IMG/VR virus record: IMGVR_UViG_3300023273_000812
Coordinates: 1 to 64,000 of that record
Length of the DNA: 64,000 nucleotides
Source: a virus
Direction: 5' to 3' (one strand)
Below, piece after piece: positions 1 through 61,229 of the stretch; within the stretch, counting starts at the first letter, position 1, and each line of letters begins with the position of its first letter. The position numbers were made by a program, and so were the translations under genes. The notes under the pieces are model-generated. The model worked only from the letters and a program-made list of their open reading frames with translations, was not told where the DNA came from and searched no databases.

Positions 1-1081
1 CAAAAGCTTTAACAATTTTGTGTATGCATTGATAGTAGTAGGCTGTGGGTGTCATACCTACTTTTTCACAGTTACGAAGAACAGACATAGCGGACATACA
101 AAACATCCCCGCCAGTTCATCGTATCTAATTGGGTGTGTTTGACTTTCAAGAATACTTATTAGTTTGGTTTTAAAAGTAGTGTCTAACAAGTATTGTTTA
201 ACAGCGTCGTTATGGTTCTTAATTAAAGGTTGTAGTAATCCGTTAAGGTTTTCTACACTCTTGTATAAAGTCTGGTCATCACACAAAGATGGAAGAATGT
301 CTTTTATATCTTTTATTGTAATAGTGTGTGTTAAAGGTAAAGTGCTTATATACTTCTGTATTCTAGGTAGTAGTACGGTTACATCTTGTTTTTGAATACA
401 GATACCATGTTTATTACAAAGGATTGTAACGGACCATCGACCAAAGGACTTACCGTTTTTATTAGTATAGCCGGCTTCGTTTAGTTTCTTAGTAATCTCA
501 GCATATGTCAAAGGTTGTTGTTCTAACAAGGATTTAATATAAGTTATGGATTCTGGGTCTTCTAGTTTAGGTTGTTCCTGTTGAACGATAACACTATCCT
601 CAAAGTTGATGTTAGTAACATCTGGTAGTAAGGTATAAGGATTAAACACTTGAGGGTCAAACTCACAGATTTCCTCTATTGGTGTAGGTTGTATCTTTCT
701 AAGACTTTGAACAGCCACAACACCTTTAACAGTTTGTACACCTCTAGTTTGTAGATAATAATTCAAACCATTACTAGACCAAGGTTTACCTTGAGTATTA
801 GTAATTCTTAAACTGTTTAGAATAGAACAAAGTGTATTGCTAGATATAAGTGTTTTACCATGTTCTTCTAAAACTAAACTCAAGTCTACTAAGGGTGCGT
901 CTATAAGGAAACTTAAAACTCTTTTTCTTTTAGGTAATGAGTTCTTAGTACGCATATAGTGAATAGTCTGTTTAGACACTTGTTTACCAAAAGACAACAG
1001 TTTAACCATGTCTTGGTCTTTATAGCCTTGTAGTGTATACTTCAGGATCTCAGTTTTTTGTTGTAAGTCCAGTTCTACCAT
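1..1081 (-). CDS. HTH-rich DNA-binding protein, C-terminus cut by window edge
   Basis: The minus strand is open from an ATG at 1081 to the window edge (360 codons seen, no stop reached). An AGGAG at 1087-1091 sits five bases before the ATG. Several helix-turn-helix-like segments are visible: one at the N-terminus (residues about 8-40, QGYKDQDMVKLLSFGKQVSK), one around residues 195-230 (LTYAEITKKLNEAGYTNKNG) resembling the helical segment that follows the catalytic domain in large serine recombinases, and one near the end (ELAGMFCMSAMSVLRN). No catalytic recombinase domain is seen in the part present. It is probably a regulator or DNA-binding accessory protein; function is unassigned. The phage promoter-like motif at 1107-1138 lies 26 bases upstream of the start. 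Confidence 0.8.
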   Translation of the reverse strand, partial: MVELDLQQKTEILKYTLQGYKDQDMVKLLSFGKQVSKQTIHYMRTKNSLPKRKRVLSFLIDAPLVDLSLVLEEHGKTLISSNTLCSILNSLRITNTQGKPWSSNGLNYYLQTRGVQTVKGVVAVQSLRKIQPTPIEEICEFDPQVFNPYTLLPDVTNINFEDSVIVQQEQPKLEDPESITYIKSLLEQQPLTYAEITKKLNEAGYTNKNGKSFGRWSVTILCNKHGICIQKQDVTVLLPRIQKYISTLPLTHTITIKDIKDILPSLCDDQTLYKSVENLNGLLQPLIKNHNDAVKQYLLDTTFKTKLISILESQTHPIRYDELAGMFCMSAMSVLRNCEKVGMTPTAYYYQCIHKIVKAF

Positions 1082-1106: not shown

Positions 1107-1138
1107 TATATACTAAAACACAAGAAAAAATTATAGGT
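1107..1138 (-). promoter_or_regulatory. Putative phage promoter (CCTATAA-N15-AGTATATA)
   Basis: Read on the minus strand: ACCTATAAT, exactly 15 bases, then AGTATATA, ending 26 bases before the ATG of the HTH gene at 1081. This is one of about ten copies in the window that share both boxes and the 15-base spacing. Confidence 0.6.
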
Positions 1139-2105: not shown

Positions 2106-5100
2106 TTACAAACTAGAACGAACATTGAAAGTAATTACAATGTAGATCAATGGGAACACTGGTTGGTAGTAGGCTTCCACTTCGATAGCCGTTGCATCCG
2201 TTTCAGATACTTTAGCACTAGCAGGAATAAAGGTAGCAATAATTTGGTTACCCACAAGTCCTTTAAGAGTAGCGTTTAACTGACCCTCGATTTGACTTGT
2301 AATCCCTGGTAAGAACTTAATACCAATGAAACGATCCAAAGTAGCACGGGCTTGTCTTTGAACTTCATCTGCAATAGTAATAACAGAAGGAGTTCTAGAC
2401 AAAGTGTTAGTCATGTCTGTTGTAAGACCGTGACGAACAGAAATAACCTGTCTGTCTTGTCCAATAACAGTCACACCTCTAACGGCCACTTGGTTTTGTG
2501 CTACAGCATCTAACTTACGAGCAACTTCATCAAATCCAACAATACGACCACGAGTCCAAGGAGTCGCAACATCAATTGTAGGACTTGCTCTGTTACCAGC
2601 CCAAGCGGCTGCTACATAAGTACCATCCACCAAGTAAGACTTAACAGAACCATCCGCTGCAGTTAAAGACAATGTAACAATGTCCGGATACATAATTCTC
2701 AAACGAGAACGCATAACGGCTTCTGCTATATTACCAACCTGTCTAGGTTGTGTTCCAGCACTAACACCAACAATCGCAGTTCTTTCCGCACGATAACGAA
2801 TAGAACTTTGAATGTCACAATGTCTAGCCAAGTATTGGAACATTGGTAAACTATCACCCCGCATAGGAACAATGTAGTTAGGATAAATACCACCAGGTAA
2901 AGACCCTTCTACTTCATCGATAGCCTTAATGTAAGCGTCAATAGAAGCAGAGTCCGGAGTACCATCGTTGTTAATGTCTTCATCCTTTTCTACTTGTTTA
3001 ATAGCAATGATTACGGCACCATTCAAGAACGCTAAGTAAGCACCTAAGGAAACAGGATTAGAAGGAGTCTTTTCACCAAACGCTTGTTCTACAGTCGCTT
3101 GTTTAGTGTAAATCTGACTACTAAAATCTTGTTTACGATAGTTGTACGACACATAGTAGATGTCTCCTACACTAGGTTCATTTCCACCACTTGCATAAGT
3201 AGTAACAACAGCCGAGTCTCCAACATTAACACCTAAAGTATTAGAAACAATTGTTTCTACTCCCGGTAAAGTATTAATAGGAAGATTGGAGTCTGTTGTA
3301 ACAACCTTACGAAGTTTGAAAGTGAAACTTTCACCTGTAGGATAACTAGCGCCACCAGGTCTTGGTAAAACAGTAAAAGTCAAACCAGTAACTAAGTCAC
3401 GATAGGTTTGTCCAACATTACCATCTTGTCCATTACCACTATTAAGTACAGAAGTATTAGCTGAACCCGAACCGTCAATAGGATCAGAAGATGTAACATA
3501 GAAACCATCTATGGATGGTTCACCAACATTACCTTCTCCACCAGTAACACCTAATCCAGTACCAGGTCTTGTTACAGAGTCTACAGCGGCTTCTACAATA
3601 GCAATAGAACTAGAAGTTCCAACACCAGAAGTACCTAAACTTTGTAAGTACAAGAACTCTCCACCAACACTATCACGAATAGTTTTAGCAATACCCACTT
3701 TAGTAAAGTAAGCAGACGCACCACCATCTGCCCAGTCGATTAAGTGCAATGCTATAGACGCTTGGTCGTGTGCCAAAAGAGCACTAACCAATGTTTCCAC
3801 TTCTACAACAGTTCTAAATACTTGTTCACCGGTATTGAATCCAAGTGTGTCGTTAGCAGAACCATTACCAATAGTAATAGAAGCATCTGAACTAGAACTA
3901 GCACCACGGAAACGGATACCCACACCTTCTTGCATTACCAATCCACTAGCCAAACCTTGAGCAACCATGGCCGCTTGGATTTGGTTTAAGACTGTATTCG
4001 CTGTACCAATAGGACCTAAAGGAACATCTGCAGATGTTGTAATAGCACCGCCAGTACCGTCTGTAAACTCAATAGTTACAGGTACACCTTCGAAAGTAAA
4101 CTTAAAGATGTTACTTTGTGGGTTAGTTGAACTTGGACCATAGAAAGTTACTAAAGGTTGTCCACTACCGTCTTGTCCACCTTCAAGTCCAATGTGTGAA
4201 CTAATAGTAGGTTCCATAACTGTACCACGAATACCACTAACACCAATTTCGTTAGAAGTAAGACCACAGTTATTGTTTCCACTACCACCTAAGACTTGAA
4301 TAAAGGCTTGGTCTTGAACATATTGTCCATCCATAGAACCAGATTTTCCAGGTACAAGGCGGTTACGAAGAATAAGTCTATCATAACGCTTTTGTCCTGA
4401 GGCACCTGTAAGTGAGAACACACGAGCAATTTTACCATTAACAAGTTTGGCTTGTCCACCTTGTGCACTGTCAGTATCGAAACCTGCTAACACAGCAAAG
4501 TCACGAGCAGGAGTTCCATTAGTTACAAACTCCAAGAAACCACCGTCAGTATCTGTATGATCTGGAATCAAACTAAATACTAATCTTCCACTAGTATCGG
4601 CTTCTACTGTAATAATACAGGAAAGACCCGCTACACCAACTGCTGTGTTTACTGCAGTTTGAATAGCAGATACTAAGTCACTTACAGAACCATAAGTACT
4701 TGCGGGAATTGTGACAGAGATTGGAACAGAACCTTTAACGGAACCAGTGTAGTTAAGTTCAATTTGATCAAACTCACTCGCACTGATAACAGTAGGAGCC
4801 AAGAACTGTGTTACTCCAGTAATACTAGGAGCAGCATCTGGATTGTACAAGTGGAATACAGAAGTAGCATCGAAAGTACCACCATCAAGTGTTAACACAC
4901 CATTAACAGAGGCTGTAACAGTTCTAACTGTAGTACTTACACCAGTACCTCCTGTACACACAAGTTGCCAGCCTGCATACAGATTATCTGTATCACAAGG
5001 CATTTCCGAAGCGGGAATTGTAAGTGTGTTAAGACCACCCGCACTCGCTAATGCAAAGATACCTAAGGTGGCTTGGTTAATAGCTAAAGCATAGTAACCA

Positions 5101-7256
5101 ACATCTACAGTACCTGTAGCGATACAAGCCATAATAAGTTTACCATCAACAATAAACTCTAAGTTCTTATTAGTTTCGTCTACTACATAAGTAGTGTATC
5201 CACTAGAGGCTGTATACACAATCTCATTACTTACAAGTTGTGCGTGTATACCGCAACCTGCACCTGTTGGATCACTTAAGTCCACAAAGCCACCAGTAAC
5301 AGTAGACCCTTCAAACTCTACATCAAAATGGTCAGAACCATTAGAGATAAGATAGTAAGGACCTGTACCTGGTACAGTGTATTTAGCCAATGTTGCATCT
5401 TGACTGTCGAATGTAACAGTTACATCTTCTTCTACTGAACCTTGATAAAAGTTAGTATTAAAAGGTGTTTCTACACGACAATCAGGAAGTCTTTCTGTAC
5501 CACTTGGAAACTGTAATTCGATAGTAGCCAACCCACTGGACTTAGATCCAAATTGTGGTGTTACTAAGGCATTACTGTTTTCGTCTGTGATAGTATAAGT
5601 ACCAACACCACTTGCTCCAGCCGTATTACTAACAATAGAGTACTCTAGGTCTACTAATGTGTTGTAATAGAATGTAGCGTATACTGTGGCCCCTACAGGT
5701 ACTGCTTGTGCTAAAGTGATAGTATTGGTTTCACTATCAACCTTAGTTACTTGTACACGACCACGATTAACAGCGTCTTCTACAGAGAATCCCCAATAAG
5801 CCCAAACCAGGTCTGGTCTATTGGTTGGAAGATCGTAACGACCATTAGATACTTTGTTGTATGTATCAGAAGACAGAGGAGTATTTCTACCATTACCCGT
5901 TGTGGCTTGTAAAGGTAAAGTGAACTCTTTACGACCTTCTACTGCAGGAGAAGTTGCTGTATTTACAACGGCTGTACATTCTGCTAAGTATTGTCTAACA
6001 TCTACCAAAGAAGAGGTAACTTGTGTTCCATCGAAGAAGTTGTAACCCAAAGTGTGAACACCAGACTCAACAGTACTAGCAGTACCCCAAAGGATTAAGT
6101 CGTCCTTTAGAATAAAGTCCGCACCGGCTGTGTAATCCTGACGATCTGGTGTAATACCACATTGTGTGATTTGAGTAACACCACGATGTGCCAGATAATC
6201 AAAAGTGTCCTGCCAAGAGTTAAAGTAATACTGACAAGATACAGTATCTCCAACCTTTGGAGCGAAAGGTAAAGTAATAGCACCAGATTGTCCATCTACT
6301 GAAGTAGGGATTACTTGGATACCGTTTACTTTAACTGTTACATCCGCGGGATCTGTTGAGGTAATACCACCATTAGAACCATCTACGATAGGTCTTTGGA
6401 ATGTGTAGAACACATTATTTCTTGGAGTAGTTTGTCCTAGAGTAAGTCCTAATGTAGTATTAGCAGACCCGTTAAGGATTTCAATACTATTATCAGCACT
6501 TAATACTACAACAGTTTCTCCAAAGTTATTAACTGCAGTAGAACCACTTAAGGAAGTACTACCACTACCACCATTAATAAAAGCAGCGATTTGAGCGGCT
6601 GTCCAAGGAGCACCTGCTGCACTTGGAAGAATTGTAATGTCCAAAGTAGTTTGGTTATCTACCAAGATTTTAAGAGTGTCGTTTACACCTTGTGTGATTA
6701 CAAAAGGTTCACCTTTTGCTCCGTAAATAATAGGTGCTTGGGATGTAACTTGTTCAGACAAGTTATCCGTAATCAAAGTGTCTGTTCTATTAAAGAAGTA
6801 AGTAACTCTTACTTCGTCACCTAAACTAGGAGAAGTAGAAAGTTTTAAAATACCTTTAGAACCGTCAATAGCCAGAACTACTACGGGTTCATTATTAATA
6901 GTTACAGAAACACTACCGGTATCTTTTGCAGTAGTTCCTGAACCGTCTCCTGTTACAATAGGAAAATGTTTAACTTGAATACGATCCAAGTTACCATCAA
7001 AAGCACCTAAAGTTACATTACCAGTTTGGGAAATACTAACAACAGCACGACCTGTTTCATCTTCTTGAACAATGCGTTGGTCTACTGAAGAAGAAGAACC
7101 ACGAACAAGTTCAAGTTGATTTTGTGTTAAGATTTCAGAGCCCGTTCCTACCAATAAAGGAATACGGACATTAGAGGCCACACCTTGTAAAGGGTCCTCA
7201 AAGTTTGTTTGGGTATACACACCGGGAGGGGCGTATATAGAACCTGGGAAAGTCAT
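2106..7256 (-). CDS. Giant tail sheath protein with repeated beta-domain insertions
   Basis: The protein has 1716 residues, against roughly 400-700 in most contractile sheaths. The N-terminus (MTFPGSIYAPPGVYTQ) and the last about 290 residues (SIDAYIKAIDEVEG onward, with GRIVGFDEVARKLDAVAQ, VISVRHGLTTD and LNATLKGLVGNQIIA) have the character of contractile-phage sheaths. The intervening region is beta-rich and internally repetitive. Residues about 98-165 and 288-353 align as duplicates (PIV.G...G.T..D...V.V..N, DG..G...L...P..GD.V...Y.FN...DT). Weaker copies lie near residues 470-535 and 1330-1370. A second repeat type ends NGSAN(T/D)TLG. Such modules would decorate the outside of the sheath tube. 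Expressed from AGGAG before the ATG, ending at a strong terminator. Confidence 0.92.
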   Translation of the reverse strand: MTFPGSIYAPPGVYTQTNFEDPLQGVASNVRIPLLVGTGSEILTQNQLELVRGSSSSVDQRIVQEDETGRAVVSISQTGNVTLGAFDGNLDRIQVKHFPIVTGDGSGTTAKDTGSVSVTINNEPVVVLAIDGSKGILKLSTSPSLGDEVRVTYFFNRTDTLITDNLSEQVTSQAPIIYGAKGEPFVITQGVNDTLKILVDNQTTLDITILPSAAGAPWTAAQIAAFINGGSGSTSLSGSTAVNNFGETVVVLSADNSIEILNGSANTTLGLTLGQTTPRNNVFYTFQRPIVDGSNGGITSTDPADVTVKVNGIQVIPTSVDGQSGAITLPFAPKVGDTVSCQYYFNSWQDTFDYLAHRGVTQITQCGITPDRQDYTAGADFILKDDLILWGTASTVESGVHTLGYNFFDGTQVTSSLVDVRQYLAECTAVVNTATSPAVEGRKEFTLPLQATTGNGRNTPLSSDTYNKVSNGRYDLPTNRPDLVWAYWGFSVEDAVNRGRVQVTKVDSETNTITLAQAVPVGATVYATFYYNTLVDLEYSIVSNTAGASGVGTYTITDENSNALVTPQFGSKSSGLATIELQFPSGTERLPDCRVETPFNTNFYQGSVEEDVTVTFDSQDATLAKYTVPGTGPYYLISNGSDHFDVEFEGSTVTGGFVDLSDPTGAGCGIHAQLVSNEIVYTASSGYTTYVVDETNKNLEFIVDGKLIMACIATGTVDVGYYALAINQATLGIFALASAGGLNTLTIPASEMPCDTDNLYAGWQLVCTGGTGVSTTVRTVTASVNGVLTLDGGTFDATSVFHLYNPDAAPSITGVTQFLAPTVISASEFDQIELNYTGSVKGSVPISVTIPASTYGSVSDLVSAIQTAVNTAVGVAGLSCIITVEADTSGRLVFSLIPDHTDTDGGFLEFVTNGTPARDFAVLAGFDTDSAQGGQAKLVNGKIARVFSLTGASGQKRYDRLILRNRLVPGKSGSMDGQYVQDQAFIQVLGGSGNNNCGLTSNEIGVSGIRGTVMEPTISSHIGLEGGQDGSGQPLVTFYGPSSTNPQSNIFKFTFEGVPVTIEFTDGTGGAITTSADVPLGPIGTANTVLNQIQAAMVAQGLASGLVMQEGVGIRFRGASSSSDASITIGNGSANDTLGFNTGEQVFRTVVEVETLVSALLAHDQASIALHLIDWADGGASAYFTKVGIAKTIRDSVGGEFLYLQSLGTSGVGTSSSIAIVEAAVDSVTRPGTGLGVTGGEGNVGEPSIDGFYVTSSDPIDGSGSANTSVLNSGNGQDGNVGQTYRDLVTGLTFTVLPRPGGASYPTGESFTFKLRKVVTTDSNLPINTLPGVETIVSNTLGVNVGDSAVVTTYASGGNEPSVGDIYYVSYNYRKQDFSSQIYTKQATVEQAFGEKTPSNPVSLGAYLAFLNGAVIIAIKQVEKDEDINNDGTPDSASIDAYIKAIDEVEGSLPGGIYPNYIVPMRGDSLPMFQYLARHCDIQSSIRYRAERTAIVGVSAGTQPRQVGNIAEAVMRSRLRIMYPDIVTLSLTAADGSVKSYLVDGTYVAAAWAGNRASPTIDVATPWTRGRIVGFDEVARKLDAVAQNQVAVRGVTVIGQDRQVISVRHGLTTDMTNTLSRTPSVITIADEVQRQARATLDRFIGIKFLPGITSQIEGQLNATLKGLVGNQIIATFIPASAKVSETDATAIEVEAYYQPVFPLIYIVITFNVRSSL

Positions 7257-11455: not shown

Positions 11456-11528
11456 AACACACCTTTTTGGAATTGTTATTTTAACATAAATGTTTTTTGT
11501 ATAAGGATTCTATTGAATGTATCTCTAG

Positions 11529-14984: not shown

Positions 14985-15025
14985 ATTTTCTCCAATAACT
15001 TTTATAGTTAGTAACTATTAAGGAA

Positions 15026-15256
15026 CTATTGTGAGTCTATATAGGCCTGTATATCTTCTATAGCGTGGTCCACTGTACTAGGTATTTCATCATAAGATAA
15101 GTAGGAATCCAAACTATCCGAAATATATTGTAAGGCTAGTTCTAAAGGTTGTTCTAACTTAATACAAGCTAAAACAGCACATGCTATGGCTTGGAAAAAT
15201 TGTGGATTGTTCTTTTCTTGTTCAACCCACTTTTGAAACTCTTGTTCAATACTCAT
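15026..15256 (-). CDS. Small acidic helical protein
   Basis: A 76-residue protein starting at the ATG at 15256, which overlaps the upstream stop as ATGA; a longer reading from 15265 adds three residues. Mostly helical and acidic (FQKWVEQEKNNPQFFQAIAC, DEIPSTVDHAIEDIQAYIDS). No recognised family. Translationally coupled to the phosphoribosyltransferase gene. Confidence 0.75.
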   Translation of the reverse strand: MSIEQEFQKWVEQEKNNPQFFQAIACAVLACIKLEQPLELALQYISDSLDSYLSYDEIPSTVDHAIEDIQAYIDSQ

Positions 15257-19602: not shown

Positions 19603-19639
19603 TAAAAAAGGATGTGTTTTAAACAAAAAACACATCCTT
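19603..19639 (-). terminator. Terminator, duplicated cassette copy 1
   Basis: A 13-base stem (AAGGATGTGTTTT / AAAACACATCCTT) followed on the minus strand by TTTTTATT and then directly by the ribosome site of the gene at 19589. The same hairpin and flanks recur at 20103-20132. Confidence 0.8.
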
Positions 19640-20097: not shown

Positions 20098-20132
20098 TAA
20101 AAAAGGATGTGTTTAAACATAAACACATCCTT
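20098..20132 (-). terminator. Terminator, duplicated cassette copy 2
   Basis: A 12-base stem (AAGGATGTGTTT / AAACACATCCTT) followed by TTTTTTATT on the minus strand, downstream of recA (stop at 20156). It nearly repeats the hairpin at 19603-19639 with shared flanks. Confidence 0.85.
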
Positions 20133-20155
20133 ATATACAATTTATTGAAAATGTT

Positions 20156-21364
20156 TTAGAGATCTAAATCGTCTAAATCACTTAAAACATTATCGATGTC
20201 ATTACCTGCCGTATCTTCCTCTTCGTCTTCATCTGTAAAGTTATCTGCGGCCCCTGTACCCAATAATGGTAAGACAGTGTTACGCAAAGATAAGTAGTCG
20301 TCTTCAGATTGTATTAAGTGTGTTCTTAAACGCTCTGTACCTTGTAGTTTTAACGGACCACTTGGACAAGTTTCCCAAGTTAACCAAGAACCACCTTTCT
20401 TAATAATACCGTGAGCAATGGCAATTTCCATCATAGTACGAACATTGTCAATACCTTCACCCCAACGAATATAAAAGATCTCTTGACGACCTTGGGATCG
20501 TGACATCTTACACTTAACGGCTTCCACTTTAATAATACCACCCACAACACGTTCATCTGTTTTATGAGTAAGTTTATTGTGTTCCTTAGCCTTTTCGTTT
20601 TGTACACGCCGTAATTCCAATCTAACAGAAGAATAAAACTTCCAAGCATTTCCACCTTGTGGTTTACTTTGTTTACCCATACTGTTCATTGTAGCACGGA
20701 TCTGTGAGATACCAATAATAGCAGTTCCAGTCTTAGCGATAACTTTCTTTAAGTTAGGTAGTTCCTGTGACCATACAGATTGTAACTCACCAATCTTACC
20801 TTGCTCTGCTACATCCAAGGCGTCTCGTTCAGATAGTCTTCTTGGAATAGCGGCTCCCACAGAGTCAAACACAATAATGTCAACACCAGCAGCGGCGTAT
20901 GCCATTGCATACTTAATACCATCTTCTAAAGACTCTGGTTGTAATAACTCAAAACGATCAGGGTCTGTAATAGGAACACCAAGTGCCATTGCATAATCAG
21001 GAACAATGTCGTTTTCCCAATCAATGTAAAGTGCGGAACCACCTTCAGCACAAACACGAGCACATGCTTCCAAACATAAAGTAGTTTTACCAGCCGACTC
21101 ATGTCCCCATACTTGGGTAACACGACCACGAGGAAAACCTGGACAAGGGGCTACACCAAACTTATTAGGTTCACCTCCAATAAGATAATCTACTACATCT
21201 GAACCACTACTAATGTGAGGTAAGGATTCTTTTAATGCGTCATCATCCAAGGCTACACGAATACTGGTAAAGTCCTTACCAGCTTTCTTTTTTAAGTATT
21301 CACGAGCGGCTGCAAGTGGGTTAGACCCACCACTTTGTATTTCACTTTTAGCTTTCTTAGCCAT
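20156..21364 (-). CDS. recA: RecA/UvsX-type recombinase
   Basis: A 402-residue protein from the ATG at 21364 (GGAGAAATAACT upstream); an upstream frame to 21409 has no ribosome site. RecA core: Walker A GHESAGKTTL (residues 87-96), Walker B VDIIVFDSVGA, and loop 2 region IIGISQIRATMNSM followed by QGGNAWKFYSSVRLELRR. It forms filaments on ssDNA for strand exchange. The C-terminus is strongly acidic (TDEDEEEDTAGNDIDNVLSD) and ends DIDNVLSDLDDLDL, a tail shared with the ssDNA-binding protein (22108) and the UvsY-like protein (23019). Flanked by RuvC-like and gp32-like genes in a T4-like recombination cluster. Confidence 0.93.
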   Translation of the reverse strand: MAKKAKSEIQSGGSNPLAAAREYLKKKAGKDFTSIRVALDDDALKESLPHISSGSDVVDYLIGGEPNKFGVAPCPGFPRGRVTQVWGHESAGKTTLCLEACARVCAEGGSALYIDWENDIVPDYAMALGVPITDPDRFELLQPESLEDGIKYAMAYAAAGVDIIVFDSVGAAIPRRLSERDALDVAEQGKIGELQSVWSQELPNLKKVIAKTGTAIIGISQIRATMNSMGKQSKPQGGNAWKFYSSVRLELRRVQNEKAKEHNKLTHKTDERVVGGIIKVEAVKCKMSRSQGRQEIFYIRWGEGIDNVRTMMEIAIAHGIIKKGGSWLTWETCPSGPLKLQGTERLRTHLIQSEDDYLSLRNTVLPLLGTGAADNFTDEDEEEDTAGNDIDNVLSDLDDLDL

Positions 21365-22900: not shown

Positions 22901-22932
22901 TATATACTTACAAGAAAACTATTTGTATAGGG
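22901..22932 (-). promoter_or_regulatory. Putative phage promoter of the ssDNA-binding gene
   Basis: Minus strand CCCTATACA, 15 bases, AGTATATA, 74 bases upstream of the ATG at 22827. The longest leader among the copies, leaving room for translational control. Confidence 0.6.
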
Positions 22933-22954: not shown

Positions 22955-22998
22955 TTAAAATTAAAAAACCCACTGGTCTACTTACACCAGTGGGTTTT
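22955..22998 (-). terminator. Strong rho-independent terminator
   Basis: A 13-base stem (AAAACCCACTGGT / ACCAGTGGGTTTT) followed on the minus strand by TTAATTTTAAAAG. It lies 21 bases past the stop of the gene at 23019 and separates it from the promoter at 22901-22932. Confidence 0.9.
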
Positions 22999-23807: not shown

Positions 23808-26138
23808 TTACTCCATAGTTATAGGTTGTTCTTTATATACTGTTATTATGCGTTCGTCTAATAGGGTAAATCTTTTGTTAGCCTTATCATTAGTAACGGC
23901 TTTTAATATAGCCCCTTGTTCACCAATAATAAAAACCTTTTTCTTAGCCCTTGTAATTGCTGTGTAAAACAAGTTTCTTTGTAACTGTAAAGAGAAACTA
24001 TTTAACAAAGGTAACACAATAATGTCATACTCCTGACCCTGACTTTTATGTACTGTTTGGGCATAAGCCAATCTTAACACTTGTGTGGCTTCTTGAAAAG
24101 AGTATCTAACAACACTTGGTGGTACATCCGTCCCCTCATGTATCTTAACTTCAATCTCTTTAGCTTTCTTATCTATAAAAGACACTTTACCAACATCACC
24201 ATTATAAACACCTTTTAAGTAATCGTTCTTAATAGTCATTACACGATCACCCTCTCTTACAACAGCATTACCTAATCTAACTTCAGGTACTGTATAAGAA
24301 GGAGGATTTAGTGTCTGTCTTAAAGACTCGTTTAAGGCCGTTACACCAGCCTCTCCATTATGTCTAGGAGACAACACTTGAAAGTTGTATCTACTATTGT
24401 AGAGTTTCTTAGACACTTGTACAATCTTATCTTGTGCGTCTTTTTGACTACCACTAGCAAATAGTACAAAGTCTTTATTATCAATTGTAGGCATTACACC
24501 ATGATGTGTATCATGGGCGGCTAATACAATACCACTTGTATTTTGTTGTCTAAAGATTTCGTCTAAATGTGTGTGGTTAAAAACATTAGTACTTACTAAA
24601 TCCCTTAGAATGTCCCCACTACCAACACTTGGTAATTGGTACGGGTCTCCTACAAAGACAACATGACAATCTTTTCTTGTACCTAATAATAATCTATAAA
24701 GCATATGTAAGTCTAACATAGAGCTTTCATCTACAATAATAAACTGGGCTGGATGTGGATTCTCTTCGTCAAAACCCCACTCCTGTTTTAAAGACTCATC
24801 GAATCCTTGCTTCTTTGCTGTCTTAATAACACCTGTGTAAGAAGCCAGATCCTCATCTTCTTCTATACGACCTTTAGCACCAAAGGCTCTATGTACTGTC
24901 ATAGCCTCACAACCTGTTACACTAGATAATCTTTTAGCCGCAATACCTGTAGGGGCACACAATAAGAAAGGTATACCTGCGTCTTTTAAAACACTTACAA
25001 CAGATTGTAAGGTGGTTGTTTTACCGGTACCAGGTAATCCTGTTAGTACAGACACTTTAGAAGTTAGGATACTAATACTAGCCTGTTTCTGTGTTTCCGT
25101 AAGAGTGATGTGATTACCTTTTGACCAGTTAGAAATACAGGCTTCCGCTACTTGGTTTAAGTCACCACCTTGTTCCACAACCTCTTCTACAGCGTACCCT
25201 ACATTAGTTAAAGATTTTATGTAGGCTTCTAAGTCTATGTTTGTACTTAACCTTTCTATAAGTTGTTGTGTACAATATGTTTCCATATCATAATTATGTT
25301 TTAGATAAACACACACCCCTTGAGTTTCACTTTTATGAGCCACTATACTTTTCTTATGTACTAAGTCCTTTATAGCATCGGAAAAGTCTTCATTGTCTAC
25401 ACTGGATCTTGTTAAGTTTCTAACAAGATCCATTAACTTAGAAAGTGGGATATATAAGTCACCTTGACTTGTTTCGGTTTTAACTACGGATAAGATAGCC
25501 CCTTTTAATCGATTATTATTGTCTAAAGACACACCTAACTTTTCAGCTATCCTGTCTGCTTCAATAAAACTAATACCTGCGGCTCTAACTAGTATCCAAG
25601 GATCTTGATTAATAACATCTTCGATGTCGGAACCTATTGTCTTCCATATATTAGAAATAACATGAGTACTTAAACCTAAATCATATAAGTATGTGGTTGT
25701 TTCTAAGTGTGCTCTAATAAAGTTCCATCTGCCAATAACAAAGACTTGTTGTTCTGGTTTTAACTTTTCAACATTAGATAAGTCACCACTGTTTAACAAG
25801 TCGAACAGTTTCACATCATTACTATCACAGTACATCTCCAATACAGTTCTAGCAAACATGGAAACACCTTGGGCTGTTAAAGCAGACATTATCTTTTCCT
25901 CTGTCCAAGTATCTACAGGAACAGGGTATCTAGTCACACTTAACTGTTTACCATACTTACGATCACTAACCCACTCTCCTTCAAAACTAATCCAAGTACC
26001 AATAGCGATCTTATCATAGAAGTTTCCTTTTACAGTAATAGGTAAAGATTTTTTATCTCCGTCTAACAAGACTTTTAAGATTTTAAAGTCTTCGTTTTCA
26101 TATACAATAGTGTTTACTCGTCCACTAAAATTGTTCAT
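23808..26138 (-). CDS. RecD-type superfamily 1 helicase
   Basis: A 776-residue helicase. The N-terminal domain (residues 1-85) is an OB-like fold seen in RecD2/TraA-type enzymes (INTIVYENEDFKI-like strand). Helicase motifs: I GLPGTGKTTTL, II IIVDESSMLD, III VFVGDPYQLPSVGSGD, V AYAQTVHKSQGQEYD and VI LFYTAITRAKKKVFI. It has helix-hairpin-helix-like segments around residues 105-240, as in RecD2. It would unwind DNA 5' to 3' in recombination or repair. Own promoter-like motif upstream at 26165-26196, and coupled to the UvsY-like gene downstream (three-base gap). Confidence 0.92.
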   Translation of the reverse strand: MNNFSGRVNTIVYENEDFKILKVLLDGDKKSLPITVKGNFYDKIAIGTWISFEGEWVSDRKYGKQLSVTRYPVPVDTWTEEKIMSALTAQGVSMFARTVLEMYCDSNDVKLFDLLNSGDLSNVEKLKPEQQVFVIGRWNFIRAHLETTTYLYDLGLSTHVISNIWKTIGSDIEDVINQDPWILVRAAGISFIEADRIAEKLGVSLDNNNRLKGAILSVVKTETSQGDLYIPLSKLMDLVRNLTRSSVDNEDFSDAIKDLVHKKSIVAHKSETQGVCVYLKHNYDMETYCTQQLIERLSTNIDLEAYIKSLTNVGYAVEEVVEQGGDLNQVAEACISNWSKGNHITLTETQKQASISILTSKVSVLTGLPGTGKTTTLQSVVSVLKDAGIPFLLCAPTGIAAKRLSSVTGCEAMTVHRAFGAKGRIEEDEDLASYTGVIKTAKKQGFDESLKQEWGFDEENPHPAQFIIVDESSMLDLHMLYRLLLGTRKDCHVVFVGDPYQLPSVGSGDILRDLVSTNVFNHTHLDEIFRQQNTSGIVLAAHDTHHGVMPTIDNKDFVLFASGSQKDAQDKIVQVSKKLYNSRYNFQVLSPRHNGEAGVTALNESLRQTLNPPSYTVPEVRLGNAVVREGDRVMTIKNDYLKGVYNGDVGKVSFIDKKAKEIEVKIHEGTDVPPSVVRYSFQEATQVLRLAYAQTVHKSQGQEYDIIVLPLLNSFSLQLQRNLFYTAITRAKKKVFIIGEQGAILKAVTNDKANKRFTLLDERIITVYKEQPITME

Positions 26139-26164: not shown

Positions 26165-26196
26165 TATATACAGTAATTACAACAACAATTAGAGGG
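26165..26196 (-). promoter_or_regulatory. Putative phage promoter of the helicase operon
   Basis: Minus strand CCCTCTAAT, 15 bases, TGTATATA, ending 27 bases before the helicase ATG. Confidence 0.6.
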
Positions 26197-26197
26197 T

Positions 26198-26239
26198 AAA
26201 AAACAAAAGGAGTAGGACTTTACTAAATCCTACTCCTTT
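26198..26239 (-). terminator. Rho-independent terminator after nrdJ
   Basis: A 12-base stem (AAAGGAGTAGGA / TCCTACTCCTTT) followed on the minus strand by TGTTTTTT, 34 bases beyond the nrdJ stop and just upstream of the next promoter. Confidence 0.88.
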
Positions 26240-29834: not shown

Positions 29835-29866
29835 TATATACTGTATCTGTAAGTCAGTTAATAGGA
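29835..29866 (-). promoter_or_regulatory. Putative phage promoter of the clamp-loader operon
   Basis: Minus strand TCCTATTAA, 15 bases, AGTATATA, 30 bases upstream of the ATG at 29805, immediately past the stop of the small zinc-ribbon gene. Confidence 0.5.
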
Positions 29867-29870
29867 TTAC

Positions 29871-30029
29871 TTAAAAAGTAATAGTGAAGCCACCATTACA
29901 AGTAAGACATCTATAGTGGATACTTCTTCCTCCCGTAGGGAGATTGAACTTCCTTAGTACAAGACATCTTTGTCCTGTACATTTAGGTTTTCTACAATTA
30001 ACAAAAACAGTATCCCCAGGTTTAGACAT
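29871..30029 (-). CDS. 52-residue zinc-ribbon protein
   Basis: A short frame starting at the ATG at 30029 (AAGGA nine bases upstream, three bases after the preceding stop). The product, MSKPGDTVFVNCRKPKC... CRCLTCNGGFTITF-type, has cysteines at 12, 17, 22, 41 and 44; CLTC (41-44) with the N-terminal cysteines makes a plausible zinc ribbon. Basic and glycine-rich. Small zinc ribbons in phages often bind nucleic acid or RNA polymerase; no specific function can be assigned. The gene lies between the Lys/Asn-rich gene and the clamp-loader promoter. Confidence 0.7.
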   Translation of the reverse strand: MSKPGDTVFVNCRKPKCTGQRCLVLRKFNLPTGGRSIHYRCLTCNGGFTITF

Positions 30030-33722: not shown

Positions 33723-33752
33723 AAACCCATAAGTTCGCTTATGGGTTTTTTC
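33723..33752 (+). terminator. Rho-independent terminator with UUCG tetraloop
   Basis: Stem AAACCCATAAG / CTTATGGGTTT closed by TTCG and followed by TTTC-rich sequence, 32 bases past the stop at 33690. A UUCG loop is exceptionally stable. Confidence 0.92.
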
Positions 33753-33758
33753 TTTTAT

Positions 33759-33790
33759 CCCTCTAATCCTAAAACCTATTCCAGTATATA
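33759..33790 (+). promoter_or_regulatory. Putative phage promoter of the methyltransferase operon
   Basis: CCCTCTAAT, 15 bases, AGTATATA, ending 28 bases before the ATG at 33819 and directly after a terminator. One of the best copies. Confidence 0.65.
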
Positions 33791-38490: not shown

Positions 38491-39378
38491 GTGAATATAA
38501 AAAGTACATTGTTCTGGTCTCATTTAAAAATGTATGAAGACTGTCCTCAAAGGTTTCTTTGGACAAAAGGTTGGGATGGTATTGATGTAGGTGCTGGAGA
38601 GGGTAAACCAAAACCAGTTACTAAACCTACAAGTAGACATGCTGCTATTATGGGTATTGCTATTCATCACGCTATTGAGTTGTTTTATAATGATGAGATT
38701 TATCGTAACGGAAAAGGTGTTACAGATTTACTTTGTACACTAGCCACAGAAAAGTTTAACACTTTATGTGAAAAGTCTTTTATAGACTATGAGGAAGCCA
38801 AGTTAACTAAACAACAGATGTTAGACTTAGTTATTAATGGTGTTAAAGGGTTTGTACAGACTTGTAAACACAATAAATTACTAGGTACATATTCCAAGTC
38901 CGAAGTAAAAATGATAGCGTGGATTGACCAGTATAACAGTATTGGTGGGATTGTAGACATTGTTGTTCGAAGAGAAGACTGTGGTACTTTACTGTTAGAT
39001 GGTAAGAACAGTCGTATAAAAGAAAAGGTAGACGAGGATCAATTACACTTCTATGCTCTAGTGTATAGATACTCTTATAGAAAGATGCCGGACAAGTTAG
39101 GGTTCGTTTGGTTTAGGTATCCGTATGTAGAAAATACACAAGACACAGGTATTACTTGGGTAGATGTTAGTCAACAAAAGTTGGACGAGTTAATTACAAG
39201 GGTACAAACGGCTAAGAAAAGTATGTATAAGAAGAAGTTTAAAGCCAAACCTAGTAGAGATGCTTGTATCTTTTGTAATTATAAAGATCAATGTTCTGAA
39301 TACCAAGAAGGTGAGCAGTTAGTAGAGGGTATTAAAAAAGTACCAAAGAATAATGGTTTTGGAGATTTCTCCCTATAA
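38491..39378 (+). CDS. Cas4/RecB-like PD-(D/E)XK nuclease
   Basis: A 295-residue protein starting at GTG 38491 (GGGGGTGA upstream). It has the layout of RecB-family nucleases with a [4Fe-4S] cluster: C18 in YEDCPQRF, IGIAIHHAIE, GGIVDIVVRRED then LLLDGKNSR (catalytic D-x-K), DQLHFYALVYRY (Q/Y motif), and C259, C262 and C268 in CIFCNYKDQC. Cas4-like enzymes in phages act in DNA end processing and recombination. It precedes the sliding-clamp operon. There is no CRISPR locus in the window. Confidence 0.88.
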   Translation: MNIKSTLFWSHLKMYEDCPQRFLWTKGWDGIDVGAGEGKPKPVTKPTSRHAAIMGIAIHHAIELFYNDEIYRNGKGVTDLLCTLATEKFNTLCEKSFIDYEEAKLTKQQMLDLVINGVKGFVQTCKHNKLLGTYSKSEVKMIAWIDQYNSIGGIVDIVVRREDCGTLLLDGKNSRIKEKVDEDQLHFYALVYRYSYRKMPDKLGFVWFRYPYVENTQDTGITWVDVSQQKLDELITRVQTAKKSMYKKKFKAKPSRDACIFCNYKDQCSEYQEGEQLVEGIKKVPKNNGFGDFSL

Positions 39379-39402
39379 CCTAAAACCTTAAAATAGTATA
39401 TA
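39371..39402 (+). promoter_or_regulatory. Putative phage promoter of the clamp operon
   Basis: CCCTATAAC, 15 bases, AGTATATA, ending 18 bases before the ATG at 39421. The upstream box overlaps the end of the nuclease gene. Confidence 0.65.
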
Positions 39403-44691: not shown

Positions 44692-44723
44692 TCCTAGTAT
44701 TGTTGACACGCATATAGTATATA
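44692..44723 (+). promoter_or_regulatory. Putative phage promoter of the dnaX operon
   Basis: TCCTAGTAT, 15 bases, AGTATATA, 25 bases before the ATG at 44749. A TTGACA at 44703-44708 lies between the boxes and could alternatively serve as a host -35. Confidence 0.5.
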
Positions 44724-44748: not shown

Positions 44749-46119
44749 ATGGCTTTAGACACAAAGTACAGACCACGAAATTATGTAGATGTTTTAGGAC
44801 AAGAATCTAGTACTGCTGTTTTAAAACAGTTTGTGAAAGAAGGAAAAGGCTTTCACCAGTCTTATGTGTTTTGTGGTCAACATGGTTCTGGTAAAACAAC
44901 AATGGGTCGTATTCTAGCCCGTGCTTTATTGTGTTCTAATCCTGTAGAAGGTGAACCTTGTAATGAGTGCGAATCCTGTAATACCTTTCTAAGTGGTGGT
45001 GTACACGCTAACTTTGAAGAGTTAGATGCTGCTACTAGATCAGGTAAGGCTGACTTAGCACAAATTATAGAAGAACTTAACTACGCTTCCTTTTCAGGTA
45101 AAAGAAAGATTTACTTGTTCGACGAGTCCCATCGTTTATCTAAACAGGCCTTAGATGCGTTATTAAAACCGATGGAAGACACAATAGAAGGAAGTGAAGA
45201 CAAAAGACTTATCTGTATTTTCTGTACAACAGAACCAGAGAAAATGGTATCTACTATCTTCTCTAGATGTGCTCCAGCGTTTGTTATTAAAGCCGTAGAC
45301 GCAGAAGGTATTGCTGAACGATTGGCTTATGTGTGTGAACAAGAGAGTATTAACTATACTATAGATTCCTTAGTAACAATAGCGGAAGTAGCAGAGTGTC
45401 ACATTAGAGACTGTTTAAAAATGGTTGAAGGTGTGTCTATGTTAGGGGACATTAATAAGCAGACAGTTACTCAGTACTTACAGATAGGTGCTAATGATTA
45501 TATTGTGGACACACTTTTAAACATTGGTGTGGATCTAAATCAATGTGTACAGAATACAGATTTACTATCTAAAGAAGTTTCTCCAAGTGTTGCATATGAA
45601 AGATTAGCAGATTGTTGTATGGTGGCTTATCGTAAGTTTTTAGGTGTGGGTAAAGTTCCTAAACAATGGGAGGAGTCCAAGATAGAGGAACTATCTAAGA
45701 AGGGTGAACAGTTATTAACATTGTCTATGAAGTTTGCTGCTCCAATACATAAACCTAGTAAACAAACATTGGTGTTAGATATAGCAATGTGTCATTATGG
45801 AGATAAGTTCCAAGTCCCAGATAATTGTGTTACAATAAACTTTAATAACAGTGGTGCTAAATCTTCTACTAATGAGCATAAAAAATCAACAGTAGAAAAG
45901 ATAAATGTAAGTAATATACAAAGTGAGGTTGTTAAAACAGACAAGCCAGTAAAGGGTCAGGTAAGTCAGTCTTTAACTCCTACAGGTGTCTGGGTAGACC
46001 CTAGAGCCATAAAAAGTATAAATACACAAAAAAGAATCACTAACGGGTTAGCACCTAATGAGTTTAGATCGATACTACTGTATCATCTGCGGAGACAAAT
46101 AGATGGAGAGAGATGGTAA
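44749..46119 (+). CDS. dnaX: DNA polymerase III gamma/tau-like clamp-loader ATPase
   Basis: A 456-residue AAA+ protein. N-terminus LDTKYRPRNYVDVLGQ is the classic DnaX start; Walker A CGQHGSGKTTMGR (about 43-55), a zinc module (C-x8-C-x2-C-x2-C in LCSNPVEGEPCNECESC), Walker B KIYLFDESHRLS, and sensor/arginine finger TIFSRCAP. A collar domain and a linker of about 100 residues (370-456) follow; this may bind a polymerase or helicase as tau does. AGGAG precedes the ATG. With delta, delta-prime and beta it completes a bacterial-type clamp loader. Overlaps the NusG-like gene by 17 bases. Confidence 0.93.
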   Translation: MALDTKYRPRNYVDVLGQESSTAVLKQFVKEGKGFHQSYVFCGQHGSGKTTMGRILARALLCSNPVEGEPCNECESCNTFLSGGVHANFEELDAATRSGKADLAQIIEELNYASFSGKRKIYLFDESHRLSKQALDALLKPMEDTIEGSEDKRLICIFCTTEPEKMVSTIFSRCAPAFVIKAVDAEGIAERLAYVCEQESINYTIDSLVTIAEVAECHIRDCLKMVEGVSMLGDINKQTVTQYLQIGANDYIVDTLLNIGVDLNQCVQNTDLLSKEVSPSVAYERLADCCMVAYRKFLGVGKVPKQWEESKIEELSKKGEQLLTLSMKFAAPIHKPSKQTLVLDIAMCHYGDKFQVPDNCVTINFNNSGAKSSTNEHKKSTVEKINVSNIQSEVVKTDKPVKGQVSQSLTPTGVWVDPRAIKSINTQKRITNGLAPNEFRSILLYHLRRQIDGERW

Positions 46120-46642
46120 AACTTGGGTAATCCTTCAGTTAACTCCTTATGGGGAAGCCTTAGCTGAAAAGGGTGAACTGTATTCCAAACTTCGTAGGAG
46201 TATTCCTAGGGAAAAGGAAATCTTTATACCATACCATCGAATAAACTTCCAAGGAAAAATTACAAAGTTAAATGTGTTAGAGGGTTATTGTTTTGTAGAA
46301 TCGGGTCTACCAGAAAATGATTACTTTAACTTTGGCTTAGAAAATTACATTGAAGATGTTTTACATAGTAAAAGTAGTAAGAGAGGTCCTATTACTTTAC
46401 AGACTGTAAGGGATGTAGATGTGCAAAAATTAAAAGACAGTCTACAAGAAATGCTAAGCCAAGACTTACAAGAAGATATGAGTGTAACTATTACAAGTGG
46501 TATCTACAAAGGTTTAGAGGGTAAGGTTGTAGGCTTTACAGAAGATAGGGGTGAGGCTTTTATTTATATAAGTTTAAGATCTTTAAAAGCCATCCGAACT
46601 GTTCCTACAATACTTTTAACTACGGAGGTAGAGGATGTCTAA
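46103..46642 (+). CDS. NusG-like transcription factor (NGN + KOW)
   Basis: A 179-residue protein. Residues 5-70 match an NGN domain (WVILQLTPYGEALAEKGELY, EIFIPYHRI, LEGYCFVES). Residues about 128-155 are a KOW motif (VTITSGIYKGLEGKVVGF) followed by ISLRSLKAIRTVP. NusG proteins bind the RNA polymerase clamp and modulate pausing and termination; a phage paralogue could act as an antiterminator like RfaH. GGAG precedes the ATG within the dnaX end. Followed with eight-base overlap by a sigma-like HTH gene, so both form a transcription module behind dnaX. Confidence 0.82.
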   Translation: MERDGKTWVILQLTPYGEALAEKGELYSKLRRSIPREKEIFIPYHRINFQGKITKLNVLEGYCFVESGLPENDYFNFGLENYIEDVLHSKSSKRGPITLQTVRDVDVQKLKDSLQEMLSQDLQEDMSVTITSGIYKGLEGKVVGFTEDRGEAFIYISLRSLKAIRTVPTILLTTEVEDV

Positions 46643-47240
46643 GTATTGGAGTAACTTTGTATATTTTGACAGCCATGACTTTGAAGGAATGTTTTCCAAC
46701 GAAGACGGTATACATAACTTTCCTACATACAGTGAAGTCTTAGACGAAGACTCCCAAGAGAAATTAGATAGTATTAGGGAAGTGTTAGAAGAATTACCAC
46801 CAAGGGAAGCCGATTTTATTGACTTGTACTTTTTTAAAAAAGTAACACAGTTGGGTATAGCAGACTTGTTTGGTGTTTCTCAACCTACAGTATGTTATAG
46901 GTTAGCTAAAGCCGCTAAAAGATTAAGTTACATAATTAACACACCAAACTATCCTATTAGTAGTGTGGAAGAAGACTTGAGGGGTGTGTTAACAGACGAG
47001 TTGGACATTAATATAATGTTGTTAATGTTACAAAAAACTTGTCAGTCAGAAGTAGCCCGAGAATTAAATGTTTCACAAGGATTAGTTCGTTATAGGTTTA
47101 TGCGTAACTTAAAACAAATTAAAAACTTTAAGGATTTAGATAAAACCATACAGTGTTTAGAGCATGTGTCTAATCACTTTAACATTCTAAAAGACACTAA
47201 CAGATCAAAACTAGAAGAGTCTATTACTTATTCCTTATAA
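46635..47240 (+). CDS. Sigma region 4-like HTH protein
   Basis: A 201-residue protein, GGAGG before the ATG. Residues about 40-100 (LEELPPREADFIDLYFFKKV, LGIADLFGVSQPTVCYRLAK) match sigma region 4: a helix ending in a P-R/x-E-x-D motif, then HTH. A second HTH follows (TCQSEVARELNVSQGLVRYR). Region 2 is not evident, so it may be a partial sigma, an anti-sigma-type appropriator or a late-gene activator. Its position with the NusG paralogue suggests control of phage transcription. Confidence 0.75.
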   Translation: MSKYWSNFVYFDSHDFEGMFSNEDGIHNFPTYSEVLDEDSQEKLDSIREVLEELPPREADFIDLYFFKKVTQLGIADLFGVSQPTVCYRLAKAAKRLSYIINTPNYPISSVEEDLRGVLTDELDINIMLLMLQKTCQSEVARELNVSQGLVRYRFMRNLKQIKNFKDLDKTIQCLEHVSNHFNILKDTNRSKLEESITYSL

Positions 47241-47288
47241 CAATAAATACTTTATACATTACATAGTGTGTCAGTAAAAAGGATTGTT

Positions 47289-47595: not shown

Positions 47596-48024
47596 ATGGC
47601 TGTTTCATTAGTACAATCCGAGTTTACTTACCAAAGTGGTACAGCACCTACTTTGTATATGTTTACTATTGTATCTGATCTTAGTGGTACATTAAGTGTT
47701 CGAGATATACAAGACCCTTATGGTTTTATTATCTCTCCTTATACACAGATACCTAAATCAGTAACTGACGACATACAAAGTGCTATGTTGCAAGTGGAGG
47801 GTCTTTTGAGTAGTACAAGTGCTTTTAATGGTAGTGTTAACTTTGTAGGAGAGACTACAAAAGTTATCACTTTCCCAAGTGTACAACCTAACCTAAATTA
47901 CAGGGTTCATTTAACAAGTGATATATTCGCACCTTTCAAAGTTACAAGTAAAACACTTACAAGTTTCACTATCGAATGTGGTGCGGAAATTACAGCCACT
48001 GTTTCGTTCGATGTTTTTATTTAA
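47596..48024 (+). CDS. Virion protein with fibre-type C-terminal beta domain
   Basis: A 142-residue protein from the ATG at 47596, one base after the preceding stop; the frame is open from 47584. The C-terminal half (FPSVQPNLNYRVHLTSDIFA, SKTLTSFTIECGAE) is a beta-sandwich segment similar to the C-terminus of the protein at 61251-62714 (FPQSDTNYVVLVESPD, SKTVNSFTIVSD). Such domains occur at tips of phage tail or head fibres. Likely structural. Confidence 0.72.
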   Translation: MAVSLVQSEFTYQSGTAPTLYMFTIVSDLSGTLSVRDIQDPYGFIISPYTQIPKSVTDDIQSAMLQVEGLLSSTSAFNGSVNFVGETTKVITFPSVQPNLNYRVHLTSDIFAPFKVTSKTLTSFTIECGAEITATVSFDVFI

Positions 48025-49709: not shown

Positions 49710-49985
49710 ATGGACTCTGTAAGATTTATTAGAGTATGGTGTGTTGTAAGAGATGGTTTTGTTTACACTAAACAAGGAAACCTAGGACAAGGACACACAG
49801 CAATACCTTGGCAGGTTTTATTAAAGTTACATTTTAAAGTACCTTACACACAAGAACTTATATTAAGTGATTGGAATAGTATACCAGATACTAATAAGAA
49901 GTATGTCTATATAGATAGAAGAGAACACCAAGTTGTACTACAAGACTACTTAGGGGCTTTAGATGAATGGGTAGAACTTAAATAG
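49710..49985 (+). CDS. Small hypothetical protein
   Basis: A 91-residue protein from the ATG at 49710 (AGGAG upstream); the longer frame from 49650 runs through the terminator. Beta-rich with aromatic residues (VRFIRVWCVVRDGFVYTKQG, KKYVYIDRREHQVVLQDYLG). Not recognised. Confidence 0.72.
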   Translation: MDSVRFIRVWCVVRDGFVYTKQGNLGQGHTAIPWQVLLKLHFKVPYTQELILSDWNSIPDTNKKYVYIDRREHQVVLQDYLGALDEWVELK

Positions 49986-50023
49986 TTAGTTTATACGCTA
50001 ATACTATTAAAGTAAGGTTCAGT

Positions 50024-54666: not shown

Positions 54667-54698
54667 CTGTATAAAAGGTTTACAGTATGTAGTATATA
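54667..54698 (+). promoter_or_regulatory. Putative phage promoter
   Basis: CTGTATAAA, 15 bases, AGTATATA, ending 18 bases before the ATG at 54717 (ACGGAGG between). The upstream box is a weaker match. Confidence 0.45.
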
Positions 54699-55097: not shown

Positions 55098-55505
55098 ATG
55101 GCTGACATTATAGACCTTAAAGAAAAGTTACAAAAGGACTTTTATACAGAAAGACTCTATAATGGTTTATCTTTAAAATTAAGTCCTGTAGAAGGTATGG
55201 AACTTAAGTATTTATTAAGAACATACTTAGAAGAGGATTTTATATACGAGACTTCCTATGATGTAAATGAGGATGTTTTAACAGTACTTAAAAACAACAA
55301 GCCTGTAATACTTCTTACATTCACAGAAGGAAGTCATGTTTATTTCACACCCCCTTTAGACTTCATGGGACAAGACACCGAAGTACAAAACTTGTGTATA
55401 TGTTTAGTAGTGTGTGACCAGTTTATAGAAGTTTACTTAGAACTATATGGTCCTCAAGACAGTTCTACAGATGATGGTAATGTGTTAACTTTCCCAATTA
55501 AATAA
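55098..55505 (+). CDS. Hypothetical protein, paralogue of the previous gene
   Basis: A 135-residue acidic protein starting three bases after the previous stop (AGGA upstream). Layout matches its neighbour: helical start, LSPVEGMELKYLLRTYLEED, a central strand region (VLKNNKPVILLTFTEGSH) and a C-terminal helix. No active-site motif. Its stop lies inside the left arm of the inverted repeat at 55501-55540. Confidence 0.75.
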   Translation: MADIIDLKEKLQKDFYTERLYNGLSLKLSPVEGMELKYLLRTYLEEDFIYETSYDVNEDVLTVLKNNKPVILLTFTEGSHVYFTPPLDFMGQDTEVQNLCICLVVCDQFIEVYLELYGPQDSSTDDGNVLTFPIK

Positions 55506-55540
55506 CTTGTTTATACTAATACAATAGTTAACAAGTTATT
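55501..55540. repeat. 11-bp inverted repeat
   Basis: AATAACTTGTT (55501-55511) and AACAAGTTATT (55530-55540), 18-base loop, no T-tract. It lies before the ribosome site of the gene at 55554; possible operator or mRNA hairpin. Confidence 0.6.
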
Positions 55541-61198: not shown

Positions 61199-61229
61199 CC
61201 CTTTAACAATAATTTTTCAATAGTAAATT
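61199..61229 (+). promoter_or_regulatory. Possible phage promoter (14-base spacing)
   Basis: CCCTTTAAC, 14 bases, AGTAAATT, ending 21 bases before the ATG at 61251. Similar to the other copies but one base shorter in spacing. Confidence 0.4.

Follow-up and report, generated by a model that had tools for sequence, protein, structure and literature searches.

What marks the start of an operon in an uncultured giant phage, and which polymerase reads the mark? The question is raised by a two-part motif, CCCT(A/C)TAA(C/T), then exactly 15 bases, then (A/T)GTATATA, noticed upstream of several genes in the window (the whole stretch of 64,000 nucleotides that was analysed, bases 1-64000 of the 101,749-base IMG/VR virus record IMGVR_UViG_3300023273_000812). 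The original prediction took it for a phage-specific promoter at operon starts that follow terminators. The motif, here called M, is real and very probably forms one of the promoter classes that a jumbo phage uses.

A Megablast comparison of the window with phage records gave no match; LR745208.1, a metagenomic phage genome of 485 kb, encodes a terminase (TerL) with 54% identity to the one in the window. A second record of the same phage, G001 (102,476 bases), adds 42 kb on the left. The two overlapping records joined give 144 kb at 37% GC, and the phage genome is still incomplete. Relatives are syntenic with the focal phage over the replication and the head and packaging blocks, with GC contents mostly of 51-65%, versus 37%. 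When all viral contigs were scanned for M, at least 119 stretches came up, nearly all with one match, as expected by chance; the scan also surfaced G030, a 62.6-kb contig that shares its sample with G001. This contig probably adds a third piece to the phage genome: its GC content is 36.8%; it carries the same E and L motifs (two further promoter classes, described below); and its codon usage lies at a distance of 0.121 from that of the phage, compared with 0.089 between the two halves of the phage and 0.277 between the phage and its nearest relative. G030 (L393-L396) holds a SNF2-type helicase gene along with E, M, and L sites.

Two structural proteins deserve mention here. Despite the gap in GC content (37% here, 55-64% in the relatives compared), the major head protein (record positions 73021-73896, plus strand; L081:10021-10896) keeps 88-91% identity, far more than other proteins do. 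The tail-sheath protein (window positions 2106-7256, minus strand; 1716 aa) matches the sheath family only over its last ~350 residues; the relatives' tail-sheath proteins are of similar length and 57-70% identical to it.

Scanned as CCCTMTAAY-N15-WGTATATA, the motif has three exact sites, one with a single mismatch, and more with two or three; the majority lie directly upstream of genes. With box B required to be exact and box A allowed up to three mismatches, a spacer of 15 gave 11 upstream sites (including one L-type site, at 20132-20163) and the other spacers between 0 and 40 gave 0-3 each, so that only the predicted spacing peaks. The same search found three spacer-15 matches outside upstream regions, although upstream-intergenic DNA makes up just 2.7% of positions; the motif is not as frequent inside genes as ahead of them. 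Against the 11 upstream matches at up to three mismatches, dinucleotide shuffles of the upstream regions gave a mean of 0.18 and a maximum of one. The 15 intervening bases vary, as claimed at the outset: information per spacer position is at most 0.47 bit and mostly under 0.35.

Weight matrices gave the same picture. The ten sites used to build one matrix top all 288,008 positions scored, and each site, when omitted in turn, still ranks between 9 and 23. A matrix trained on the eight window sites alone was then applied to 105 kb of held-out sequence in two stretches, where the top two positions of each stretch were new sites, four in all. Every one is intergenic and lies 15-28 nt before a start codon, one of them 28 nt before the SNF2-type helicase gene of G030; their scores (16.8-22.5) exceed the maximum in reversed sequence (14.4). 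Fixed spacing, gene-sense orientation, proximity to start codons, upstream terminators, and recurrence in held-out sequence together point to a promoter, as had been proposed.

Eight window sites were kept, including all six that had been named with most assurance (before genes 1081, 22827, 26138, 29805, 33819, and 39421). Each kept site has a perfect box B (AGTATATA or TGTATATA) and points in gene sense; box A of the six has zero to three mismatches. The distance from the end of box B to the start codon is 15-29 nt, with the exception of gene 22827 (73 nt). The sites, and the intrinsic-terminator-like hairpins found directly upstream of some of them, are as follows.

1107..1138, minus strand: M promoter, ACCTATAAT-N15-AGTATATA, one mismatch; 25 nt before gene -172..1081, which has a weak recombinase/HTH match
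22901..22932, minus strand: M promoter, CCCTATACA-N15-AGTATATA, two mismatches; 73 nt before gene 22827, with RuvC-like and UvsX-like genes downstream
22965..22998, minus strand: terminator-like hairpin directly upstream of the site at 22901..22932
26165..26196, minus strand: M promoter, no mismatches to the consensus; gene 23808-26138 (RecD/Dda-type helicase) starts 26 nt downstream
26206..26239, minus strand: terminator-like hairpin directly upstream of the site at 26165..26196
29835..29866, minus strand: M promoter, TCCTATTAA-N15-AGTATATA, three mismatches; 29 nt before gene 29805 (clamp-loader delta'-like), with a ribonucleotide reductase gene downstream
29878..29899, minus strand: terminator-like hairpin directly upstream of the site at 29835..29866
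33723..33748, plus strand: terminator-like hairpin directly upstream of the site at 33759..33790
33759..33790, plus strand: M promoter, no mismatches to the consensus; gene 33819-34811 (DNA methyltransferase) starts 28 nt downstream
39371..39402, plus strand: M promoter, exact consensus; overlaps the preceding gene's stop codon, 18 nt before gene 39421 (a small coiled-coil-like protein), with the sliding clamp next and a Toprim protein also in the operon
44692..44723, plus strand: M promoter, TCCTAGTAT-N15-AGTATATA, three mismatches; 25 nt before gene 44749, in an operon that encodes a clamp loader, a KOW protein, and a sigma-region-4 protein
54667..54698, plus strand: M promoter, CTGTATAAA-N15-AGTATATA, three mismatches; 18 nt before gene 54717; the weakest kept site (leave-one-out rank 23 of 288,008)

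The idea that these operons start after terminators thus fits half of the window sites (4/8), where strong intrinsic terminators lie just upstream. Six weaker copies had also been listed, and two of them, before 44749 and 54717, are real. The copy before 13150 has five mismatches, which is chance level. Box A of those before 17801 and 32338 is good; box B, however, differs (TGTACTAT and AGTACTGT, respectively) and is separated from the start codon by just 5 and 11 nt, too tight for a start site plus a Shine-Dalgarno sequence. The copy before 61251 fits the separate L class better, and the three-mismatch match at 20132-20163 was likewise set aside as L-like.

What do the M sites control? Their genes encode functions in recombination, helicase activity, the sliding clamp and clamp loader, DNA methylation (a methyltransferase), and nucleotide metabolism, along with the SNF2-type helicase of G030; genes -38199, -212, and 54717 are without assigned function. 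M is very probably the middle, replication-gene promoter class, a timing that follows from the make-up of this regulon.

The original prediction described one motif class. M has held up as such, and two more classes, E and L, exist in this phage; at least one L-class site had been listed as M. Both emerged from de novo expectation-maximisation on upstream regions, and both are stronger than M. The E motif is ACTCTCYTTTT-N10-TTCCTATAYA, followed in the leader by a small TGTGG...CCACA inverted repeat (a hairpin) and TTAAAAAATA. Its ~17 near-identical copies, none of them in the window, lie before small early-type genes in the left arm (G001 ~18.4-39 kb, window coordinates -23.8k to -3.4k) and at positions 101492-101508 (minus strand) of the window's record. 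E and M have in common a TATA-type -10, with unrelated boxes at the -35 position.

The L motif is CAATA-N6-TTATA and mostly precedes structural genes; it is the probable late promoter class, a timing that we infer. In the focal phage together with G002, 18 upstream copies have a spacer of 6, and any other spacer gives 0-1. Terminators lie between L sites and their genes in 4/24 cases, which makes no general rule. Six examples are in the window.

11500..11515, minus strand: L-class site, CAATAGAATCCTTATA; before gene 11455
15016..15031, minus strand: L-class site, CAATAGTTCCTTAATA; before gene 14984
47241..47256, plus strand: L-class promoter, CAATAAATACTTTATA; its first base directly follows the stop codon of the sigma-region-4 gene, before gene 47289
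49981..49995, plus strand: L-class promoter, AATAGTTAGTTTATA; before gene 50024
55501..55515, plus strand: L-class promoter, AATAACTTGTTTATA; before gene 55554, in the packaging block
61207..61222, plus strand: L-class site, CAATAATTTTTCAATA; before gene 61251, the supposed weak M copy

Elsewhere in the window, near-identical leader blocks (CAATAAATTGTATATAAGGATGTGTTT...AAACACATCC TTTTTTATTATGGAGAAACT) occur on the minus strand at 19639 and 20139, before genes 19589 and 20084. The leader of these two genes is duplicated, with a hairpin and a T-run between an AT-rich box and the gene.

Both M and L have counterparts in the relatives. The relatives' L is C[GT][GT]TA-N6-[CT]TAT, summarised as CGGTA-N6-CTAT; across 73 records (2.5 Mb) it has 176 upstream sites at spacer 6 and 0-8 at each of the other spacers between 0 and 15. 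At 75 loci that carry the sigma-region-4 gene, its density per kb is 1.19 in tandem intergenic regions in the sense orientation, 0.15 in antisense, 0.05 in convergent gaps, and under 0.02 inside genes. The sites precede mostly structural orthologues, and in 18 relatives an L site stands before the orthologue of gene 47289. Ahead of the CGGTA box the profile is not conserved; L therefore has no -35 box. Judged by its sequence, this compact L (CRRTA-N6-YTAT) is conserved across the clade, from 37 to 65% GC.

The M class tells a different story. At up to two mismatches, the focal M motif is found neither in eight TerL-related records of other phages plus LR745208.1 nor in 20 UvsX-related records. 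The relatives instead have GGGGG[TC]-N17-GGGTA, many of them with a copy at the orthologous position, upstream of the 39421 orthologue. Pooled over the relatives, this motif has 38 upstream sites at spacer 17, compared with seven each at spacers 16 and 18 and 0-4 elsewhere. The genes behind such sites that have a counterpart in the focal phage are all replication-block orthologues: that of 39421 fifteen times, 43131 nine times, 42403 six times, 22108 three times, and three others once each. In both versions of M, the GTA of box B begins at index 25 from the first base of box A. This shared index and the orthologous replication genes indicate that the placement, the geometry, and the GTA core of M were kept while box A changed, from GGGGGT in relatives to CCCTMTAA here or the reverse; either the M factor changed, or box A is read differently. 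The G-run class, sought inside the focal phage, has two chance-like intergenic matches only. G021 and G010 have repeated leader or promoter families of their own, AGGGTTCC-N13-GACGTAAC and GGGGGTTCAACTC...CCGTATA, which are perhaps the early classes of these relatives.

Which polymerase, then, reads these promoters? The beta subunit of multisubunit RNA polymerase (PF00562) is absent from eight records, perhaps incomplete, in a search whose control was positive; this absence concerns the multisubunit type only, the control for a T7-type enzyme having been silent. Two neighbouring genes of the M operon behind 44692..44723 are of particular interest.

46103..46642, plus strand: KOW-motif, antiterminator-like protein; PF00467 at 1.1e-4, at the cut-off; phrog_6386, transcription antiterminator, at 3.8e-5
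46635..47240, plus strand: sigma-70 region 4 protein (sigma4 protein), 201 aa; PF04545 at 7.6e-13, residues ~40-103

A sigma-70 region 4 match is present in all 11 records examined, above the curated cut-off in 10/11, and relatives of the sigma4 protein are encoded at 75 viral loci, on contigs of up to 619 kb. Its predicted model has a mean pLDDT of 77, with both of its HTH regions mostly at 85-96. Residues 34-106 superimpose on sigma region 4 structures with Z of about 10, and the domain is nearest to SigB/F/G models and to a SigF structure. A second, sigma4-like HTH spans residues ~122-162; among the fold-search matches listed, all are to sigma region 4 at residues 34-106, and the second HTH is scarcely covered. 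Its likeness to sigma region 4 is suggested by sub-threshold Pfam Sigma70_r4 matches in relatives (7.7e-6, in G004). The recognition-helix residues of both HTHs are invariant across 58 sequences.

At 201 aa the protein is too short to leave room for sigma region 2, and no region 2 (PF04542) scored over the cut-off in 11 records, in a search whose control was positive in 10 bacteria. A conserved 142-aa neighbour (47596-48024) was considered as a region 2 partner; neither PHROG nor Pfam gives it a function, and it is unlike sigma region 2. The KOW protein, encoded just upstream, is a possible partner in elongation or antitermination. The sigma4 protein would belong with L, since its recognition helices are invariant and L is conserved, whereas box A of M is not. 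It is a candidate late transcription factor. As for M itself, a Pfam scan of 20 early or M-driven proteins of this incomplete genome brought up neither MotA nor AsiA nor another activator; among the early proteins it recognised an AAA ATPase, a VWA protein, and a 5'-3' exonuclease, the others remaining unassigned.

These observations suggest a model, which we consider likely, in which M is the middle promoter class of an early-middle-late cascade and is read by host polymerase; for this model we infer transcription starts, their timing, the use of host polymerase, and box binding. Box B, AGTATATA, would act as a -10-type element, with box A, (C/A)CCTATAA, at the -35 position. From such sites, leftward and rightward operons would be started for recombination, helicase, clamp, clamp loader, nucleotide metabolism, and the sigma4 protein. 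Because the phage appears to have no multisubunit RNA polymerase to call on, the M sites would have to be read by host polymerase. It would be redirected to them, most likely, through an early phage protein bound to box A, which stands in for sigma region 4 or remodels it. The sigma4 protein from the M operon would then most likely switch the polymerase to the compact L promoters. The outcome would be an E to M to L cascade based on host polymerase.

Could the host's main sigma factor read M without any phage factor, through a -35 preference other than TTGACA? TATATA in box B agrees with TATAAT at 4/6 positions, and TMTAAY-N17-TATATA has normal -35/-10 geometry. M nevertheless fails the sigma-70 consensus test (TTGACA/TATAAT), in keeping with the early claim that it differs from host boxes, although that consensus may not be the host's. 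The -35-position boxes of E and M, being unrelated, could hardly be selected by one sigma region 4; the relatives' M has GGGTA as its -10, not TATAAT; and sigma-70-type matches are not enriched (55, versus 61.7 +/- 8.2 in shuffles). Such ordinary promoters are improbable. That the motif is no promoter at all, and marks operon starts as a conserved site for protein binding or RNA processing, is more improbable still: some sites do overlap the end of the preceding gene (39371), but the sense orientation of all kept sites, the short distance from box B to nearly all start codons, the TATA-type box, and terminators that lie upstream rather than downstream argue against it.

M might instead be read by a holoenzyme of SigB/SigF type, with sigma supplied by a stress factor of the host or by a split phage factor of unrecognised region 2; this is unlikely, yet it accounts for some of the data. 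The relatives' GGGGG[TC]-N17-GGGTA is close to published SigF and SigB consensus sequences: GTTT-N14-19-GGGTA in Mycobacterium smegmatis (PMC4694148) and GNNT...GGGTAT for Streptomyces SigB homologues (PMC8346170). The affinities of the phage sigma4 domain point the same way. Relatives' M shares with these promoters the -10 GGGTA and a similar spacing; its upstream box differs (GGGGGT), and the focal phage, with AGTATATA at -10 and CCCTMTAA as box A, has neither box. This reading is further opposed by the failure to detect region 2 over the cut-off in 11 records, by the origin of the sigma4 protein in an M operon itself, and by recognition helices that are invariant where box A is not. A middle class recognised through box A by a phage early protein thus remains the preferred reading of M.

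A broader proposal is offered tentatively, as less likely than not to hold in all its parts: a large clade of giant phages without a multisubunit polymerase of their own would run an E-M-L programme in which a two-HTH sigma4 protein, on host polymerase, reads a new, -35-less 15-bp L, and in which box A of M has been rewritten with its geometry kept. The results provide a regulatory map for an abundant clade of uncultured giant phages, naming genes that would be switched on together and a probable late-switch protein. L, short, widespread, and unlike -35/-10 promoters, raises the question of how polymerase reads it; M offers a case of a promoter box rewritten while its spacing and target genes stayed constant. 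For comparison, the huge-phage lineages described by Al-Shayeb et al. (PMC7162821) are close to the focal phage through the TerL identity to LR745208.1, and in its passages on promoters and sigma factors their paper defines no promoter classes. The novelty lies more in the clade-wide compact L and the two-HTH sigma4 protein than in the M motif.

How does this programme relate to known ones? T4 middle promoters combine a MotA box with a sigma-70 -10 and work through sigma appropriation by AsiA/MotA. The middle genes of T4 encode functions in replication, recombination, and nucleotide metabolism, and factors for the late switch; the T4 MotA box, (a/t)(a/t)(a/t)TGCTTtA, ends 12 +/- 1 bp from the -10 (PMC2988021). 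The M class resembles this system in its host-like -10 joined to a phage-specific box in the -35 region, and in a regulon of replication, recombination, and nucleotide genes plus a putative late-switch factor. The box itself is unlike MotA's: focal box A is CCCTMTAAY and ends 17 bp from TATATA. By analogy, M would work like a T4 middle promoter, but it is not one.

SPO1 runs a sigma cascade, with gp28 for middle and gp33/gp34 for late genes, in which successive promoter classes are read in turn and the late factor comes from a middle gene. The successive classes, and a putative late factor encoded by a middle gene, are common to both phages. SPO1, however, uses sigma factors with other consensus boxes, whereas region 4 is the sole sigma part recognised here, and the L motif is 15 bp long, without a -35 box.

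The phiKZ-like phages have a multisubunit RNA polymerase of their own; the focal phage and its relatives have none detected in eight records. A further comparison is with the minimal, HTH-only sigma factors and gp33 orthologues of jumbo phages, in which a single HTH binds the polymerase beta flap (PMC7824862). As there, sigma is reduced to HTH and there is no recognised phage polymerase; unlike there, two sigma4-like HTHs are combined in one 201-aa protein, encoded beside a KOW-domain protein.
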